Assembly (NCBI RefSeq): GCF_004348545.1
Contig: NZ_SMKL01000031.1
Coordinates: 1-64,000 of the forward strand
Source: Jiangella ureilytica
GTDB taxonomy: Bacteria > Actinomycetota > Actinomycetes > Jiangellales > Jiangellaceae
Reading direction: 5' to 3'
DNA length: 64,000 nt
Positions 383 to 12,369 of this stretch are shown here, in pieces. Every line of letters begins with the position of its first letter. Within the stretch, counting starts at the first letter, position 1. The notes below the pieces were generated by a model that was given only the letters and a program-made list of their open reading frames with translations, searched no databases and was not told the origin of the DNA. A program made the translations under genes and the position numbers.

Positions 383-1684
383 TCAGCCGTAGTGTGCGGC
401 GTGGTCATTCAGCAACGCGGTGTGGAAGCCGGTGAGGCGGGCCGTGAGGTCGCTGGCGATGTCGGGATGGTGGAGCGCCAGGTCGTAGCTCTCCTCGGGG
501 TCGTCACGCAGGTTGTAGAGCTGTCTGTCGTGCAGCTTCCAATCGCCGTGACGGACGCCTCTGCATGTCGTGCCGTTGTAATAGAAGAGGTCGCCTCGGT
601 CGACGGGCCGGCCGGTGCTGAGTGCCGGCATCAGGTCGCGCCCGTCGATGACGCGATCGGCCCTGGGCATGACTCCCGCCGCGGCGCACAGCGTGGGGAG
701 CAGGTCGGCCAGGCGCGCTGGCTCGCGGTAGGTCACGCCGGGCGGTACGACCGCGGGCCACTCGACAACGAGGGGGACGCGCACGCCGCCTTCGTAGGTC
801 TGCATCTTGCGGCCCCGGAGGTGACCCGCGCTGCCGACGTACCAGGGGCCGTTGTCGCTGGTGAACATCACGCAGGTGTGGTCGCGGATGCCGAGGGCGT
901 CGAGCTCGTGGAGCAGCAGCCCGAGGTAATGGTCGATCTCTTGGACCGAGTCGCCGTGGGGTCCGGCCGCCGACCGGCCGGCGAACTCGGAGAAGAGTGG
1001 CTCGTGCGGCTGCGTATGGGAGAGCACGAGGAAGAACGGCTGATCGGCGTGGGCGCGGACGAAGGCCGTGGTCTGCTCGCTGTAGCGGCGGGTCAGTGCC
1101 GCCTGGTCCGGCTGCACCTCGATGACCGTGCGGTCGTCGTAGAGGGGGAGCGGTGGCCAGGTCGTCGGCGTCATGTCGTTCGAGTACGGGAGGCCGAAGA
1201 AGCGGTCGAAACCGTGCTCGAGCGGATGGTCCTGGGGGCGAACGCCCAGGTGCCACTTGCCGATCCACGCCGTGGCGTAGCCGGCGCTCTTGAGGTACTC
1301 GGCGACGGTCGTCTCCTGCGCCGCCAGTCCGTTCGTGCTGTTCGGGAACAGGACGGCGGGCAGGTTGACACGGGGGGCATAGCATCCGGTCAGCAGCTCG
1401 GCTCGCGAGGGCGTGCACACTGGGGCCGCGTAGAAGTCGGTGAAGAGCATGCCGCGCCGTGCCATGCCGTCGAGCACCGGCGTCTCGATGAGCGGTGAGC
1501 CGTAACAGCCCAGATCGCCGTAGCCGAGATCGTCGGTGTACACGACGATGAAGTTGGGGCTCGCTGCCGACCTGGGTTCGCCGGCCTGCGCGGATGGCGC
1601 CAGCCCGGCGAGTGCGGTGCCGACGGCCGTGGCTCCGGCGCCGCGGAGCAGATCTCTGCGAGTGACGGATGCCGCGATGTTCAT
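383..1684 (-). CDS. Tat-exported Cys-type sulfatase
   Basis: A family S1 sulfatase of 433 residues that should hydrolyse a sulfate ester outside the membrane. Residues 1-34 form a twin-arginine signal (VTRRDLLRGAG). The metal-site pair D51-D52 lies in YTDDLGYGD. The formylglycine motif CTPSR begins at C90, and the substrate-site motif GKWHLG and the SDNGP metal motif are intact. The ATG at 1684 overlaps the stop of the upstream sulfatase-like gene (ATGA), so translation is probably coupled. An open frame continues upstream but has no signal sequence and only lies inside the neighbour. The sulfated substrate cannot be read from the sequence. Confidence 0.93.
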   Translation of the reverse strand: MNIAASVTRRDLLRGAGATAVGTALAGLAPSAQAGEPRSAASPNFIVVYTDDLGYGDLGCYGSPLIETPVLDGMARRGMLFTDFYAAPVCTPSRAELLTGCYAPRVNLPAVLFPNSTNGLAAQETTVAEYLKSAGYATAWIGKWHLGVRPQDHPLEHGFDRFFGLPYSNDMTPTTWPPLPLYDDRTVIEVQPDQAALTRRYSEQTTAFVRAHADQPFFLVLSHTQPHEPLFSEFAGRSAAGPHGDSVQEIDHYLGLLLHELDALGIRDHTCVMFTSDNGPWYVGSAGHLRGRKMQTYEGGVRVPLVVEWPAVVPPGVTYREPARLADLLPTLCAAAGVMPRADRVIDGRDLMPALSTGRPVDRGDLFYYNGTTCRGVRHGDWKLHDRQLYNLRDDPEESYDLALHHPDIASDLTARLTGFHTALLNDHAAHYG

Positions 1685-2979
1685 CGAAGGACCTCCTCGA
1701 CCTCGACCGGCGACGGGTGGGTGGATCGTTCCGGGGCGGACTGGCTCGCTGCTTCGGCCGCTACGTCCTGCCGCGTCGCTTCCAGCCCGTCGCGGAGGAC
1801 CTCGACGACGTCGGGGTGCAGCGCGGCGAGGTTGTAGGTCTCGCGTGGATCGGTGTCGACGTCGAACAGCTGCGGCACGTACGACCATGGCCGGTTCCCC
1901 GGCGGCCGTCGGTCGTTGTCGAAGGCGACGTGGAGCTTCCACTGCTCATGGCGCACTGCGTTGAGGAACTCGTTGAAGAACAGGTAGACGGGGCCTCGCG
2001 TGGGCGAGGCTCGTCCGGTCAGCAGGGCCGACATGTCCTCGCCGTCGAGGTCGTCGGGAGCCGGGACGCCGGCGAGGGCGCACAGCGATGGGGTGACGTC
2101 CAGCAGCGATCGCGGGACGGTGTCGCGGATGCGCCGGGTCTGGGTGAGCTGCGACGCGACGAACGGCACGCGCACACCGCCGTCGTAGACCTCTGGCTTG
2201 CGCCCCCGGCGGCTCTGAGTGCGGCCCTCCCCGCCGGGGCCGTTGTCGCTGGTGATGACCACGAGAGTGTTCGCCGACAGGCGTGTCCGGTGCAGGTGAT
2301 CGATGAGCCGGCCGAGGTGGCTGTCGAGCTGTTCGACGACGTCGCCGTATGCGCCCGCGCGGGATCGCCCGGCGAAGGCCGGCTCTGGAGCGTACGGTGC
2401 GTGCGGTGCCAGGTGAGAAAGGACGATGAGGAACGGTTCGTGTCGGTGTTCGTCGACGAAGCGGATCGCCTCGTCGGTGATGCGGCGCGCGCCGAAGGCG
2501 ATGTCGAAGGCCGGGTCTGTGGCGGTGGTTCCCTGGTACCAGGTCAGCGGGTCGACATCGGTGCCGAACAAGGTTCCGGCGAACGTGTCGAAGCCGTGGT
2601 GCAGGGGATGCTGCTCGCCGAGCGAGCCCAGCCTCCACTGTCCGAACCACGCGGTCCGGTAACCGGCCGACCTCAGCAGCGACGCCATCGTCGGCACCCC
2701 CGACGGCAGGCCGGCGGTCATTCCCGGTCGCAGGGACGCCGGAAGTCCGTAGCGCGCCCCGAAGCGGCCGGTGAGGAGGCCCGCGCGCGAGGGCGTGTCG
2801 GTGGCGCCGGCGGCGTACATGGACTCGCATACGACGCCTGTCGCGGCGAGCCGGTCGATGGTCGGCGTCCGGATGAGCCTTGCGCCGTAGGTTCCGAGGT
2901 CACCGACTCCCAGGTCGTCGGCCAGGACCAGGACGATGTTGGGTTGCCCGGGTGCTGCCGGGCGTGCGGCCGTGTCCAT
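1681..2979 (-). CDS. Sulfatase-fold protein lacking the catalytic Cys/Ser
   Basis: A 432-residue S1 sulfatase homologue whose active site is altered. Fold marks are present: LADDLGVGD with D21-D22, SHLAPHAPY, and TSDNGP. The nucleophile position of the C/S-x-P-x-R motif, however, is Asp61 (ATDTPSRAGLLTG). The usual GKWHLG is GQWRLG (Q114 and R116 replacing Lys and His). No signal peptide is seen, unlike the other three sulfatases here. The start at 2979 is set by AGAAGGGA nine bases upstream; a longer frame to 3018 has no ribosome site. Its stop overlaps the start of an intact sulfatase gene. It may be a non-catalytic partner, a binding protein, or an enzyme with another chemistry. Confidence 0.85.
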   Translation of the reverse strand: MDTAARPAAPGQPNIVLVLADDLGVGDLGTYGARLIRTPTIDRLAATGVVCESMYAAGATDTPSRAGLLTGRFGARYGLPASLRPGMTAGLPSGVPTMASLLRSAGYRTAWFGQWRLGSLGEQHPLHHGFDTFAGTLFGTDVDPLTWYQGTTATDPAFDIAFGARRITDEAIRFVDEHRHEPFLIVLSHLAPHAPYAPEPAFAGRSRAGAYGDVVEQLDSHLGRLIDHLHRTRLSANTLVVITSDNGPGGEGRTQSRRGRKPEVYDGGVRVPFVASQLTQTRRIRDTVPRSLLDVTPSLCALAGVPAPDDLDGEDMSALLTGRASPTRGPVYLFFNEFLNAVRHEQWKLHVAFDNDRRPPGNRPWSYVPQLFDVDTDPRETYNLAALHPDVVEVLRDGLEATRQDVAAEAASQSAPERSTHPSPVEVEEVLR

Positions 2980-3095: not shown

Positions 3096-4004
3096 TCATC
3101 GACCCGAGCAGCTGAGGTAGTCGAAGCTCTCCTCGGCGAAGACGGCCGGCCCGTCGGGCCAGTTGGTGCGGTCGGCTTCGACCACGTAGTAGCGCACCCG
3201 GCCCTGCGCCGCCTCGAGGATGGGGCCCCAGTCGATGGTGCCCTCACCGACACTGGTCTGCCCCGCGGTGCCGGTGCCGATGACTCCGTCCTTGATGTGC
3301 AGTAGCTGGATGCGGTCGCCGTACTGCTCGATGAGTGCGGCGGTGTCGACGCCGGCGGTCTCGGACCAGAAGACGTCGACCTCGAAGGTGACCCAGCGCG
3401 GGTCGGTGTTCTCGACCAGGATCTGCCATGCGGTCTTGAGCTCACCCGTGTCCGGGTCGGGGTAGGTGGTCTGGAACTCACCGGCGTGGTTGTGCCCGAA
3501 CAGCCGGCCGGTGCCGTTGCGGACCGACAGTTCGCCGAGCCGGTTCATCTGGGCGGCGGTGGCGAGGGTGTTCTCGTAGCTGCCGATGCCCGGCTGTCCG
3601 AACCCGCCGGATCCGACGAACCGGTGCCCGATCGACTTGGCGTACTCGAGGAAGTCGCCGAAGTTGGCGTCGGTGTACCGGTACTGCCCGCTGGACGCCT
3701 TCAGGCCGTACTTCCGCAGCAGCGCCTCGAACTCGTCGGCGGGCATGTCGTAGGAGCCGGCGTAGGGCTGGACCTCCTTGTAGCCGATCTCTGCGAGCGT
3801 GGCGAGCACCTCCTCGAGGCCGACGTCGGCGATCCACTCTCGCGCGCCGAAGAGCTGGAATCCGATGGCCGGGGTGGGCACGCGGACGGAACAGTCGGCG
3901 GACGCGGACGCCGGCGACGTCGCGACGGCACCGGAGGACAAGGCGAGGGCGGCGGCGGCCGCGGTGAGAGCGCGCGCCAGCCGTCGGCGGGAATATCGGG
4001 TCAT
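3096..4004 (-). CDS. Exported sugar isomerase/epimerase-like TIM-barrel protein
   Basis: A 302-residue protein of the xylose-isomerase-like (AP endonuclease 2) TIM-barrel superfamily. Residues 1-36 form an export signal with SRRRLARAL and a long Ala-rich stretch. Expected metal-site regions are seen: GHNHAGEF around residue 170, EVDVFW near 205, and LLHIKDG near 235. Members interconvert keto and aldo sugars or epimerise them. The ATG at 4004 has GGAGG seven bases upstream. It lies between sulfatase genes in the same direction (30 bp after the previous gene), which suggests it acts on a desulfated or oxidised sugar, probably outside the cytoplasm. The exact reaction is unknown. Confidence 0.85.
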   Translation of the reverse strand: MTRYSRRRLARALTAAAAALALSSGAVATSPASASADCSVRVPTPAIGFQLFGAREWIADVGLEEVLATLAEIGYKEVQPYAGSYDMPADEFEALLRKYGLKASSGQYRYTDANFGDFLEYAKSIGHRFVGSGGFGQPGIGSYENTLATAAQMNRLGELSVRNGTGRLFGHNHAGEFQTTYPDPDTGELKTAWQILVENTDPRWVTFEVDVFWSETAGVDTAALIEQYGDRIQLLHIKDGVIGTGTAGQTSVGEGTIDWGPILEAAQGRVRYYVVEADRTNWPDGPAVFAEESFDYLSCSGR

Positions 4005-4034: not shown

Positions 4035-5939
4035 TCAGACGAAGAGTGGGGTCTGCGGCGTGTACTCCCCTCGGAGGACGAGCCCCAGGTAGCGGCCGCA
4101 ATTGCGCAGGTATCGGTCGCTGCCCGCGGCGGCCCGATCGAGCGCGGGCAGGGCGGGGAGGGCGGCGTCGCCGATGTAGGTCAGTGCGTTCGCCGCCTGG
4201 AGCCGCACCCGCGCGTTCTCGTGCGTGTCGAGTGTTGCGGCGAGCCAGGACACCGCGGGCCGGTGCGAGCCGAGCTTGACGAGCAGCTCGCTCAGCACCA
4301 CCTTGACGTGGGGTGAGGGCTCGAGGTCCCAGCGCTCCTCGAGGGCGGCGAGGTGGTCGATGGCGCCGCCATGGCCGAATATGAGCAGTCCGCTGGCGGC
4401 CCAGTACCGGATGACCTCGTTGGTGTCACCGAGTTCACGCAGGAACAGCGGCGCGTGCGCTGCCTCGCGTGCGATCGCCCGCGCGGCCAGCGCCATGATC
4501 CGGCGCAGTGGGTAGGCGCCGGGCTCCCTGGCGTCGTCATAGCCCTCCAAGGCAGAGCCCTCGGGGATGAAGCCGTTGTCGTTGACCTCCATCATGTGCT
4601 CAGCCAGAACCCGGCGGAACTCCTCCAGCCGGGCCCGGTGGTGCGGGTCGCCGACGAGGTTGTGCAGGTGGTCCGGGTCGGCGTGGGTGTCGTAGAACTC
4701 CTCGGCGGGGCGCTCGCGCCAGAACCGGTCCTGGACGTCGTCGAGGGTGCCGTTCAGGTGCGCCTGCTCCCAGTCCTGGTAGCTCTTGAGCTGCCAGGCG
4801 TAGGCGTTGACCTGTCCGTACGGGCGGTGCGGGGCGTAGGTGCGGATGTAGCGCAGCCGCCCGTCGGAGACGGTGCGCACCATGTCGTAGCGCTCGTCCA
4901 TCCGACCACGCATGCCGAAGGCGTAGCGGCGCGGCTCGGTACGCTGCCGGCCGGCGAGGACCTGGCCGTGCACGTGGCCTGGCACGGGCACTCGCGCCAG
5001 CGACAGCACGGTGGGCCCGAGGTCCATGAGGGTCACCGGGTCGTCGATGGCCGAGCCTGGCCGGGCCGGGGCCAGGTGCGCCCAGCGTCGCGGGAACCGG
5101 AGGACGAGAGGGACGCGCAGGCCGTCGTCGACGGCGTGGCGCTTGCTCCACGGCAGGACGCCGCCGTTGTCGCCGTAGTAGAAGACGATGGTGTCCTCGG
5201 CGAGCCCGTCGGCGTCCAGTTCGGCGAGCCGGGCGGCGAGCTGGGCGTCCATCGCGGCCATGAGGTCGTACTGGTGCGCGCGGTCAGCGCGGACGTTCGG
5301 CGTGTCCGGCAGGTACGGCGGGACCCGGACCTGCGCCGGGTCGGTGACGCCGTCGGGGGCGCCGAACAGCTGCGACTCGTGCGTGGTCTGGAAGTTGAAG
5401 ACGGCGAAGAAGGGCGTGTCCGCGGGCCGGTCGCGCCAGTGGGCGGTACGGCCGCTCGCGTCCCAGGTCGCCGCCAGGTCGACGACGGTGTTGTAGTCGG
5501 TCTTGTCGTTGTTGGTGCAGTAGTAGCCGGCCTGGCGGAGGTACTCGGGGAAGCCGCGGACGTACGCCGGGAGCTCGCCCTCGGCGCGCATGTGGTGGGC
5601 GGGGCCGGCGGCCTCGGCGTGCAGGCCGGTGATGATCGAGAACCGCGACGGCGCGCACACCGGCGCGGTGGAGAACGCGTTGCGGTACAGCACACCGTCA
5701 CGGGCGAGCGCGTCGATGGTGGGCGTGCGGGCGAGTGGGTCGCCGTAGGCGCCGACATACGGGTTGTTGTCCTCGCTGACCAGCCACAGGATGTTGGGCC
5801 GGGCGCGGGACGGTGTCGCCGCGTGGGCGGGAGCGGCGGCCACGGCGAAGGTCGCCGCGACCGCGCCGGCCGCGGCGAGAAGATCTCGCCGGGACACGGA
5901 GGAGCAGGACGGCGTCGCCTGCTCGGGTTGGTGGGTCAT
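4035..5939 (-). CDS. Tat-exported sulfatase with C-terminal HEAT-like repeats
   Basis: A 634-residue sulfatase. Residues 1-40 hold a Tat signal (VSRRDLLAAAGA) ending near AHA. The metal motif is in LVSEDNNPYVG, and the formylglycine motif CAPSR starts at C95. A KTDYN motif follows near residue 147, as in heparan-N-sulfatase-like S1 enzymes. YYGDNGG is the second metal motif. After the catalytic part (about residue 455) come alpha-helical repeats with HEAT character, such as NEVIRYWAASGLLIFG and ARVRLQAANALTYIGD, which probably bind a partner or glycan. The start at 5939 has AAAGGA seven bases upstream. It is 13 bp from the preceding sulfatase gene, so one transcript is likely. Confidence 0.92.
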   Translation of the reverse strand: MTHQPEQATPSCSSVSRRDLLAAAGAVAATFAVAAAPAHAATPSRARPNILWLVSEDNNPYVGAYGDPLARTPTIDALARDGVLYRNAFSTAPVCAPSRFSIITGLHAEAAGPAHHMRAEGELPAYVRGFPEYLRQAGYYCTNNDKTDYNTVVDLAATWDASGRTAHWRDRPADTPFFAVFNFQTTHESQLFGAPDGVTDPAQVRVPPYLPDTPNVRADRAHQYDLMAAMDAQLAARLAELDADGLAEDTIVFYYGDNGGVLPWSKRHAVDDGLRVPLVLRFPRRWAHLAPARPGSAIDDPVTLMDLGPTVLSLARVPVPGHVHGQVLAGRQRTEPRRYAFGMRGRMDERYDMVRTVSDGRLRYIRTYAPHRPYGQVNAYAWQLKSYQDWEQAHLNGTLDDVQDRFWRERPAEEFYDTHADPDHLHNLVGDPHHRARLEEFRRVLAEHMMEVNDNGFIPEGSALEGYDDAREPGAYPLRRIMALAARAIAREAAHAPLFLRELGDTNEVIRYWAASGLLIFGHGGAIDHLAALEERWDLEPSPHVKVVLSELLVKLGSHRPAVSWLAATLDTHENARVRLQAANALTYIGDAALPALPALDRAAAGSDRYLRNCGRYLGLVLRGEYTPQTPLFV

Positions 5940-5952
5940 CGGTGCCGTCCTT

Positions 5953-7446
5953 TCAGCCCGTAGGAACGCCGGCGAGGATCTCGCGCAGGTAGCGGTCGCG
6001 CAGCGGGTCGCCGGTGTCCTTCATCCACCCGAGCAGCGCGGCACGCTGGCGGCGCAGGGCGCCCTGCGCCGCTGAACCCGGTACCGCCGCAGACGCAGCC
6101 AGGTCGTGCAGGGCGTCGGGATCGTTCCACAGGTCGTAGAGCTCCTCCGGCTCCCGATGCAGATAGAAGTCGACCCGCTCGGCGAGGACGGGGTCGCCGA
6201 CTGCGGCCGCCGTCATCGCCGGCCAGCTCAGGCCCTGCATGTTCTCGGCGCGGTAGCTGGTCTGCCCGTCGGACCAGGCGTTCCAGATGTAGCCCCACCG
6301 CTCGTCCTGGACACACCGCATCTCGAAGCGCCGGCGAGCGCTCGTCTCATGGAAGACCGTGACCATGTGGTCGCGGCCGGACTGGCTGCCGGTCAGCAGC
6401 GGCGTGAGGTCGCTGCCGTCCAGCCGCGGTGGCGGCGTGGCACCGGCGGCCAGGCACATCAGGGGGAAGAGGTCCATCGTCGAGACGAAGTGCTCGCGGT
6501 CGACGTGACGGGCACGGGCGACGCCCGGCCAGCGGATGATGAGCGGCGTCCTGGTGCTCTGCACGTAACAGTTGGCCTTCGCGAACGGCAGCGCGATGCC
6601 GTTGTCGGACAGGAAGATCACGATCGTGCTGTCAGCCAGACCGGCCGCGTCGAGCTCGGCCAGTACCGCCGCCAGGGTGTCGTCCGCTCGCCGGCTGCTG
6701 CTCAGATACTCGGACAGCTCCTGACGGACGCCGGGAAGGTCGGGCAGGAAGCCTGGTACCTCGACGTCGGCCGGCGCGTACTCTTTGGACGGCTGCGCGA
6801 CCGTGGCCAGTTGCTCGGGAGTGAACATCCGCTGCTCCTCCGCGCTGCCGTGAAACGGGCGGTGCGGGTCATGGGAGTTGGCCATCAGGAAGAACGGCCG
6901 GCCCTCCGCCTTCGCGCGGTCGAAGAACCCGGCGGCCGCCCGGGCATACGTCGCAGGGTCGCGGCCCATGCCGAGATCGGGCTGGTCGATGGCCAGGTCC
7001 CAGCCGAACCGGTGGACCGGGGCGAGGTGGGTGACCTTGCCCAGGATGCCGGCCAGGTAGCCGCGGCCGCGGAGGAGATCGGTGAGGATGGGAACGTCGT
7101 CGCGGATGGGTCCGAAGCCCTCGGCACCGTTGCGATGCGGGAAGCGACCGGTCATGAGGGCGGACCGGCTGGGTTGGCACACGGCGAGCGGGACGTGGGC
7201 GCGATGGAAGGCCATGCCGTCGGCGGCCAGGCGATCGATGGTGGGCGTGATGCCCGGTAGCCCGCCGAAGCAGCCGGGGGTGTCGGCGCCCATGTCGTCG
7301 ACGGTGAACAGCAGGATGTTCGGCGTGCTCGGGCCTGTGTCGCCGGCGTGTGCGCGGAGGACCGTCTGGTCGAGGCCGATGGGTGCGGCTGCGGCGGTCG
7401 CCGCGGCGCCGAGAACGAGCCGGCGCCGGGAGAGCCTGGTGTCCAT
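5953..7446 (-). CDS. Tat-exported Cys-type sulfatase
   Basis: A 497-residue S1 sulfatase. Residues 1-35 contain a Tat signal (LSRRRLVLGAAA). FTVDDMGAD supplies the first metal residues (D50-D51). The formylglycine motif CQPSR starts at C90, GKVTHLAP is the substrate-side lysine motif, and FLSDNGIALP the second metal site. The sequence resembles the HEAT-bearing sulfatase downstream in overall order but lacks the repeat tail. The ATG at 7446 was chosen over an upstream in-frame start because AGGAAGGGG precedes it by seven bases and the Tat signal then begins at the N-terminus. It is probably the first gene of the sulfatase block after a hairpin behind the dehydrogenase gene. Confidence 0.92.
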   Translation of the reverse strand: MDTRLSRRRLVLGAAATAAAAPIGLDQTVLRAHAGDTGPSTPNILLFTVDDMGADTPGCFGGLPGITPTIDRLAADGMAFHRAHVPLAVCQPSRSALMTGRFPHRNGAEGFGPIRDDVPILTDLLRGRGYLAGILGKVTHLAPVHRFGWDLAIDQPDLGMGRDPATYARAAAGFFDRAKAEGRPFFLMANSHDPHRPFHGSAEEQRMFTPEQLATVAQPSKEYAPADVEVPGFLPDLPGVRQELSEYLSSSRRADDTLAAVLAELDAAGLADSTIVIFLSDNGIALPFAKANCYVQSTRTPLIIRWPGVARARHVDREHFVSTMDLFPLMCLAAGATPPPRLDGSDLTPLLTGSQSGRDHMVTVFHETSARRRFEMRCVQDERWGYIWNAWSDGQTSYRAENMQGLSWPAMTAAAVGDPVLAERVDFYLHREPEELYDLWNDPDALHDLAASAAVPGSAAQGALRRQRAALLGWMKDTGDPLRDRYLREILAGVPTG

Positions 7447-7495
7447 GGGTGTGCCCCTTCCTGCGTGCGGCCGGAAGGTCGCACGCATCGGTGGG

Positions 7496-11382: not shown

Positions 11383-12369
11383 ATGTCCAATGCGACGGCC
11401 CGCATCGACCTCCCGGTGCATCAGCTGGATCCGATGGACTCCACCGTGGTGCTCAGCCCCGAGGCCAACGAGGCCGGCTATTGGATCGGCTGCGCCGCGG
11501 TACTGCACGAGCCCGAGAAGAACCGCTTCGTGATGACGTACCGCCAGCGGCGTCCCCGCGACCACGCCGAGGGCGACCGCGGCTACCGCTGCGCGGTGGC
11601 GGTCAGCGGCGACGGCGTCACGTTCACCGATGTGTGGTCGGTCAACAAGGCGGCACTCGACTCGCCGTCCATGGAGCGGTTCAGCATCATCCCGGTGGAA
11701 GACGGCTACCAGCTCTACATCAGCTACGTCGACCCGGCCGACAACCGCTGGCGGATCGACGTCATCGAGGCCGAGGAGGTCGATCGCTTCGACGTCGCGT
11801 CGCGCAAGGAGGTGCTCACCGCGGCCTCGACGGGCACCGAGGGCGTGAAGGACCCCTACGTGCTGCGGCGCGGCCCCGTCACGTACCTCATCGCCAGCTA
11901 CGCGGAGGGACTGGCCGAGCCGTCGCGTGCGGCGTCGGCCCACGCGACGGCCGACATCTACAACGTCGGCGCCACGACTCACCCCACGGGCCTGGCCACC
12001 AGCGTCAACGGTCGTGACTTCACCTGGCATGGTGAGATCCTGGGCGTCGGCGAGGGCTGGGACCGCTACCAGGCCCGGATCAACTCCGTCGTCGCCTTCG
12101 ACGGCGGCGGCTACCTGGGCTTCTACGACGGCTCGGCCAGTCACCGGGAGAATTACGAGGAGCGCACCGGCCTCGCGGTGTCCTCGGACCTGTTCACCTG
12201 GCACCGGCTCACTCCGGACGGGCCGTGGACCGTCGTGCCGCACGCCACCGGCTCGGTCCGCTACGTCGATGCACTCGTCATCGGCGGCGAGTGGTGGATC
12301 TACTTCGAGGCGACCCGTCCGGACGGTGCGCACGAGCTGCGGCTCGCCCGCCGCCCCGTGCGAGTCTGA
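11383..12369 (+). CDS. Cytoplasmic five-bladed-propeller glycosidase-like protein
   Basis: A 328-residue protein without signal peptide. Repeating blades are visible: [56 protein letters not shown] and [16 protein letters not shown]. Such repeats and the KDPYV motif fit the glycosidase propeller fold (GH43/32/117/130 superfamily). The exact family cannot be set by eye. It follows the ROK gene by 32 bp and precedes the permease by 16 bp. It probably cleaves a short sugar or glycoside brought in by that importer. The start ATG at 11383 has AACAGGAG upstream. The catalytic acids were not assigned. Confidence 0.75.

Follow-up and report, generated by a model that had tools for sequence, protein, structure and literature searches.

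An S1-sulfatase-fold protein with aspartate at the formylglycine position, encoded by a gene that overlaps and is co-inherited with a twin-arginine-leader sulfatase gene

The stretch of Jiangella ureilytica DNA analyzed here (64,000 nucleotides; the window) encodes a protein, designated D, that belongs to the S1 sulfatases by fold and carries Asp at the formylglycine position. The changed site of D is under constraint, and the protein is tied to one particular clade of sulfatases, with whose genes its own gene overlaps and is co-inherited; the member of that clade encoded in the window is designated P. Based on these comparisons of genes and genomes, we give a probability of about 0.5 to the reading that D is a repurposed pseudo-sulfatase subunit, which would serve as the dedicated partner of P, the coupled Tat-exported sulfatase of the formylglycine type.

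Fold and catalytic site of the D protein

The D/Q/R pseudo-sulfatase gene occupies positions 1681–2979, with its ATG at 2979–2977 and its stop codon at 1683–1681. It lies on the minus strand, which an earlier note on this DNA had not stated. The product of 432 amino acids has no signal peptide and adopts the full S1-sulfatase fold. It matches the whole PF00884 model (1–301) with 165 bits and Sulfatase_C with 34 bits. A structure model built from a ten-sequence alignment reached a pLDDT of 80.7 and a pTM of 0.86; its best Foldseek matches were S1 sulfatases, and comparison with human arylsulfatase A gave a VIA Z of 44.5 over 394 residues at 2.2 Å.

The earlier note had described an Asp at the formylglycine position, a change of GKWHLG to GQWRLG, and retention of the metal-binding Asp residues and of SDNG, and all three descriptions hold. 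Codon 61 (2797–2799, minus strand) is GAC and places Asp at the first position of the C/S-x-P-x-R motif, in the context ATD61TPSRAG. Codons 114–116 (2632–2640, minus strand) read CAG TGG AGG, giving Q114 for the Lys and R116 for the His of GKWHLG. The metal ligands D21-D22 (2914–2919) and D245-N246 of SDNG (2242–2247) are kept, all on the same strand, together with R65, K261 (2197–2199), which is equivalent to the second sulfate-binding Lys, and H193 (2401–2403), which is equivalent to the His that serves as leaving-group acid. A profile alignment with S1 sulfatases, a check that the note had proposed, agrees with these assignments: D61 lies opposite the catalytic Cys77 of PsS1_19B (6prm), whose catalytic mutant is C77S, and Q114 and R116 correspond to the Lys and His in the GKWHLG motif of steroid sulfatase. 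A misaligned Asp was considered and rejected, as D61 aligns with Cys77 of PsS1_19B and with every Cys of the related clades P and C described below. All eight other sulfatase genes read in the window genome encode Cys at this position.

Formylglycine is known to be made only from Cys or Ser, so the D protein has no known route to it, and the known formylglycine chemistry is impossible with Asp at the site. Compared with human arylsulfatase A, steroid sulfatase, and PsS1_19B, D shares the fold, the metal ligands, the Arg of the motif, and the second Lys, but it has Asp for Cys/Ser, Gln for Lys, and Arg for His. Proteins that have the superfamily fold without formylglycine carry Thr or Ser at the site and are distant from D, which by sequence is an S1 sulfatase. 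Cys (3202) and Ser (857) are the sole residues reported for the site among the 4058 S1 sequences surveyed in SulfAtlas, and Lys113 is present in 94% (PMC5066984).

Conservation of the changed site

Close relatives were sought in 84,980 species genomes, among which two Nonomuraea species have a D ortholog with 55% best-segment identity; further members came from whole-genome searches. A genome of the window genome's own family (G001) encodes an ortholog that is 59–60% identical, and a genome of another actinobacterial family (G810), whose family and order offered only five genomes to search, encodes one that is 58% identical. The four orthologs, 54–59% identical in all, and the window protein make up a D clade of five members from four genera.

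All five members contain the Sulfatase and Sulfatase_C domains, and none has a signal peptide. Each has Asp where S1 enzymes require Cys or Ser, and Gln and Arg (Q114 and R116) where the second signature requires Lys and His. Each also has R65 of C-x-P-x-R, the metal ligands D21, D22, D245, and N246, and K261. GQWRLG is common to all members, and the site motif is DTPSR in all except the G810 protein (L048:8604–9821), which has DSPAR and an Ala in place of the H193 found in the other four; its D/Q/R residues and metal ligands are unchanged. Orthologs with the D/Q/R set, for which the earlier note had advised a search, were thus found, and the refuting outcome that the note had named, changes conserved in no relative, did not occur. 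Judged by sequence, the D clade is a branch of the S1-sulfatase family that has kept the fold and lacks the Cys or Ser by which the enzymes are defined.

We compared the D clade with 19 Cys-type relatives, counting as a clean separator any position fixed in the D clade, with its residue absent elsewhere and at least 80% of the relatives sharing another one. Only five positions qualify: 61 (C to D), 82 (V to S), 114 (K to Q), 116 (H to R), and 139 (S to G), and three of them correspond to the Cys, Lys, and His of the catalytic site. Of the 10 site residues, nine are invariant in the D clade, compared with 35% of all columns (p ~5e-4). The dN/dS ratio of the D gene in the Nonomuraea pair is 0.21; for the partner P and for a third sulfatase, the ratios are 0.31 and 0.21, respectively. 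The loss of the catalytic residues is conserved and under purifying selection, and the simplest reading is a single change of the active site that was maintained from then on.

The nearest relatives of the D clade are P and a further clade, C, at 32–47% identity. Both resemble D in length and domain order and occur in the same actinobacteria, but they keep the Cys, Lys, and His, and P also has a Tat leader. Clade C sulfatases are of the Cys type (CTPSR), score about 500 bits against the P profile, and are present without D in the window genome's genus. They also lack a signal peptide, so the missing leader of D is less telling; a leaderless sulfatase in the D/P/C group can simply be cytoplasmic. 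The window genome has a second adjacent pair of genes for leaderless Cys-type sulfatases (CSPAR then CTPSR; G000:C102:120867–123451, L002), which is also conserved in the genus. A search of viral contigs gave no match. Related sulfatases occur in 729 plasmid records, all of them <60% identical to D; the one that was read, a 39% identical ORF at L042:5890–7200 on plasmid Mpl of Novosphingobium sp. PP1Y, in an almost unannotated record, is of the Cys type with GKWHLG.

The overlapping partner gene and its surroundings

The gene for P (383–1684, minus strand) encodes 433 amino acids with a Tat leader, CTPSR, and GKWHLG. The stop codon of the D gene overlaps its ATG in the sequence ATGA (1684–1681 as read on the minus strand), which bears out the translational coupling that had been claimed. 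The same overlap is found in all five genomes (the window, L035, L036, L037, and L048), and in each the product of the gene after D is a sulfatase of the Cys type that carries a twin-arginine leader and has CTPSR and GKWHLG. Alignments of both clades show the leader on P and none on D. The earlier note had also described three intact neighbors with Tat signals. Their leaders (TRRDLL, SRRDLL, and SRRRLV) and their Cys motifs (CTPSR, CAPSR, and CQPSR) are present, and D has no leader, as stated; a small correction is that GKWHLG occurs only in the coupled neighbor and that the other two belong to other S1 subfamilies (28% identical).

The D proteins form one clade and the P partners another, each with support of 100/99 or better. 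The branching order ((Nonomuraea x2),(window,(G001,G810))) is common to the two trees, at support values of 99–100. G001 belongs to the family of the window genome and G810 lies outside it, yet both trees join G001 with G810. The topology is shared but contrary to kinship, and the pair has therefore moved or been sorted as a unit. For L035, L048, and the window, this conflict suggests that the two genes were transferred together. A gene for an IS3-type transposase lies at L048:472–1488, ~5 kb from the G810 pair.

With a match of >700 bits taken as presence of P, the D members and the P matches fall in the same three of 394 genomes of the class and in the same two of 343 genomes of the Nonomuraea family; the other matches to D, at E 1e-128, are clade C. 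At these thresholds, none of the 737 genomes has D or P alone. The suggestion that D is a partner of the coupled sulfatase has thus gained strong genomic support, in the overlap in all five genomes, the perfect co-occurrence, and the congruent trees. Overlapping genes, it should be kept in mind, are inherited jointly regardless of any contact between the proteins they encode.

In the window, the D/P pair ends a minus-strand run that encodes a GSDH/PKD/CBM6 protein, two Tat sulfatases, and a sugar-isomerase-like protein. The sulfatases lie at 5953–7488 (CQPSR) and at 4035–5939 (CAPSR, with C-terminal HEAT repeats), and the sugar-isomerase-like TIM barrel (AP_endonuc_2), which has a twin-arginine-like leader, lies upstream of D at 3096–4004. 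After P, at positions 1–199 of the minus strand, the contig end truncates a gene for a formylglycine-generating enzyme to its 66 N-terminal residues (GGGFWMGGDDPDAFPADGEGP), which match the formylglycine-generating enzyme of 6s07 with an E value of 6e-9. The remainder was sought in the assembly and not found; the sole PF03781 match there (contig C81) belongs to a protein of another kind and was rejected as the missing part. On the divergent side lie genes for two ROK regulators and for an ABC transporter whose binding protein is of the NMT1 type; a GH31 gene lies farther along. Beside a ROK regulator and the ABC transporter, positions 11383–12369 (plus strand) encode a protein of 328 amino acids with no Pfam match, which by eye has the look of a five-bladed-propeller glycoside hydrolase.

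In Nonomuraea, a gene for a solute-binding protein and a clade C sulfatase gene precede the pair and a permease gene follows it. We infer that the surroundings in the window and in Nonomuraea are a setting for sulfated-glycan use. In G001, the pair has a transporter gene on one side and genes for PIN-domain and dihydroorotase-like proteins on the other; in G810 it adjoins a metallophosphoesterase gene. In these two genomes the pair lies amid unrelated genes, so that what is conserved is the two-gene unit and not the cluster. A FIMAH domain is inserted in the C-terminal part of the G810 partner sulfatase (L048:6928–8601); another ends the metallophosphoesterase encoded upstream of the G810 pair (L048:10050–11882).

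Possible roles of D beside the sulfatase

As a dedicated subunit, D would work with P, would probably bind it, and might be exported with it by Tat. The ATGA coupling would provide balanced co-synthesis of the two proteins. D would then dock on folded P in the cytoplasm, after maturation of P by the formylglycine-generating enzyme, and might leave the cell with it, carried by Tat without a leader of its own. The clade C sulfatases are leaderless too, which makes export the weakest step of this proposal. The cytoplasmic location that the earlier note had proposed is one of two possibilities: no member has a signal peptide, but Tat is able to carry a leaderless partner. In D, Asp61 would be an extra carboxylate at the metal site, facing R65, R116, and K261. 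The metal site might bind a ligand, such as a glycan fragment that is anionic or carries sulfate, or it might lock the subunit, and D might thereby position substrate for P, stabilize it, or activate it in a cluster for sulfated-glycan breakdown. The loss of H193 in the G810 member was counted against this proposal.

Each part of such an arrangement has a known counterpart. Tat can export proteins that lack a leader when they are bound to a partner that has one (PMC4273604, PMC10924467). Escherichia coli PaoABC, a Tat "hitchhiker" system (PMC4273604), resembles D and P in that a leaderless protein is encoded with a twin-arginine partner; co-export of D and P is putative. Dead paralogs are reported to activate their active relatives in the trypanosome AdoMetDC prozyme and deoxyhypusine synthase systems (PMC5201418, PMC3663545). 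The likeness lies in an inactive paralog kept beside an active one; the interaction is proven in those systems, whereas for D and P it is presumed, and in D the dead site is strictly conserved.

The main rival explanation, possible but in our view doubtful, is that D works independently as an alkaline-phosphatase-superfamily enzyme whose chemistry has changed, acting in the cytoplasm on what P releases. Asp61 would then be a metal ligand, a general base, or even a nucleophile, and Q114 and R116 would reshape the pocket for another ester. Such an enzyme fits a pocket that is kept far better than the rest (9 of 10 residues versus 35% of columns, p = 5e-4), with metal ligands and K261 in all five members and H193 in four, as well as the concentration of differences in the catalytic site and the existence of a related leaderless clade, C, that is Cys-type. 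A pure scaffold would not require a pocket conserved to this degree, which favors a ligand or a reaction, and we give changed chemistry most of the remaining probability because the metal site and K261 would be superfluous in a mere scaffold. On the other hand, the acid His is lost in one member, a separate enzyme would not need strict coupling to one partner, and we know of no Asp nucleophile in the alkaline-phosphatase superfamily. It seems unlikely that the formylglycine site has become an active site of another kind, with Asp61 bound to the metal or acting beside it and Q114 and R116 replacing Lys and His, whose new reaction on the same glycan would make D and P a two-step, two-subunit enzyme.

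We also judge it rather improbable that D is a cytoplasmic binding or sensing protein for a sulfated or desulfated sugar, which would regulate the pathway or buffer the ligand. The absence of a signal peptide from every member, the retained metal-binding pocket, and the cluster's own transporters and ROK regulators agree with such a role, but D has no DNA-binding or signaling domain, the ROK regulators already serve the window cluster, and G001 and G810 have the pair without such a cluster. That D is an active sulfatase whose Asp is matured by an unknown modification is very improbable: the fold, the metal site, and the nearby gene for a formylglycine-generating enzyme would suit it, but known maturation starts from Cys or Ser, the survey of 4058 S1 sequences has nothing else at the site (PMC5066984), and D has also lost the Lys and His (positions 114 and 116) that bind formylglycine and sulfate. 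Decay of a duplicate could likewise remove the catalytic Cys, Lys, and His, and an error of sequencing or assembly could alter the Cys codon. Both are scarcely credible in view of identical D/Q/R residues in five independent genomes, a dN/dS of 0.21, full-length ORFs, and conserved coupling, and a sequencing error or pseudogene was rejected on the five genomes and this ratio.

A non-exhaustive search of the open-access literature gave no description of an S1 clade with Asp at the site and no paper with the word "pseudosulfatase." Formylglycine is thought to define the S1 sulfatases, and automated annotation would label D a sulfatase; matches to PF00884 need a check for Cys or Ser before they are counted as sulfatases. 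D and P would be, as far as is known, the first described pair of a pseudo-sulfatase and a sulfatase. The pair offers a direct test of whether an inactive paralog controls or aims a sulfatase, and also of whether the Tat pathway can carry a leaderless subunit along with one.
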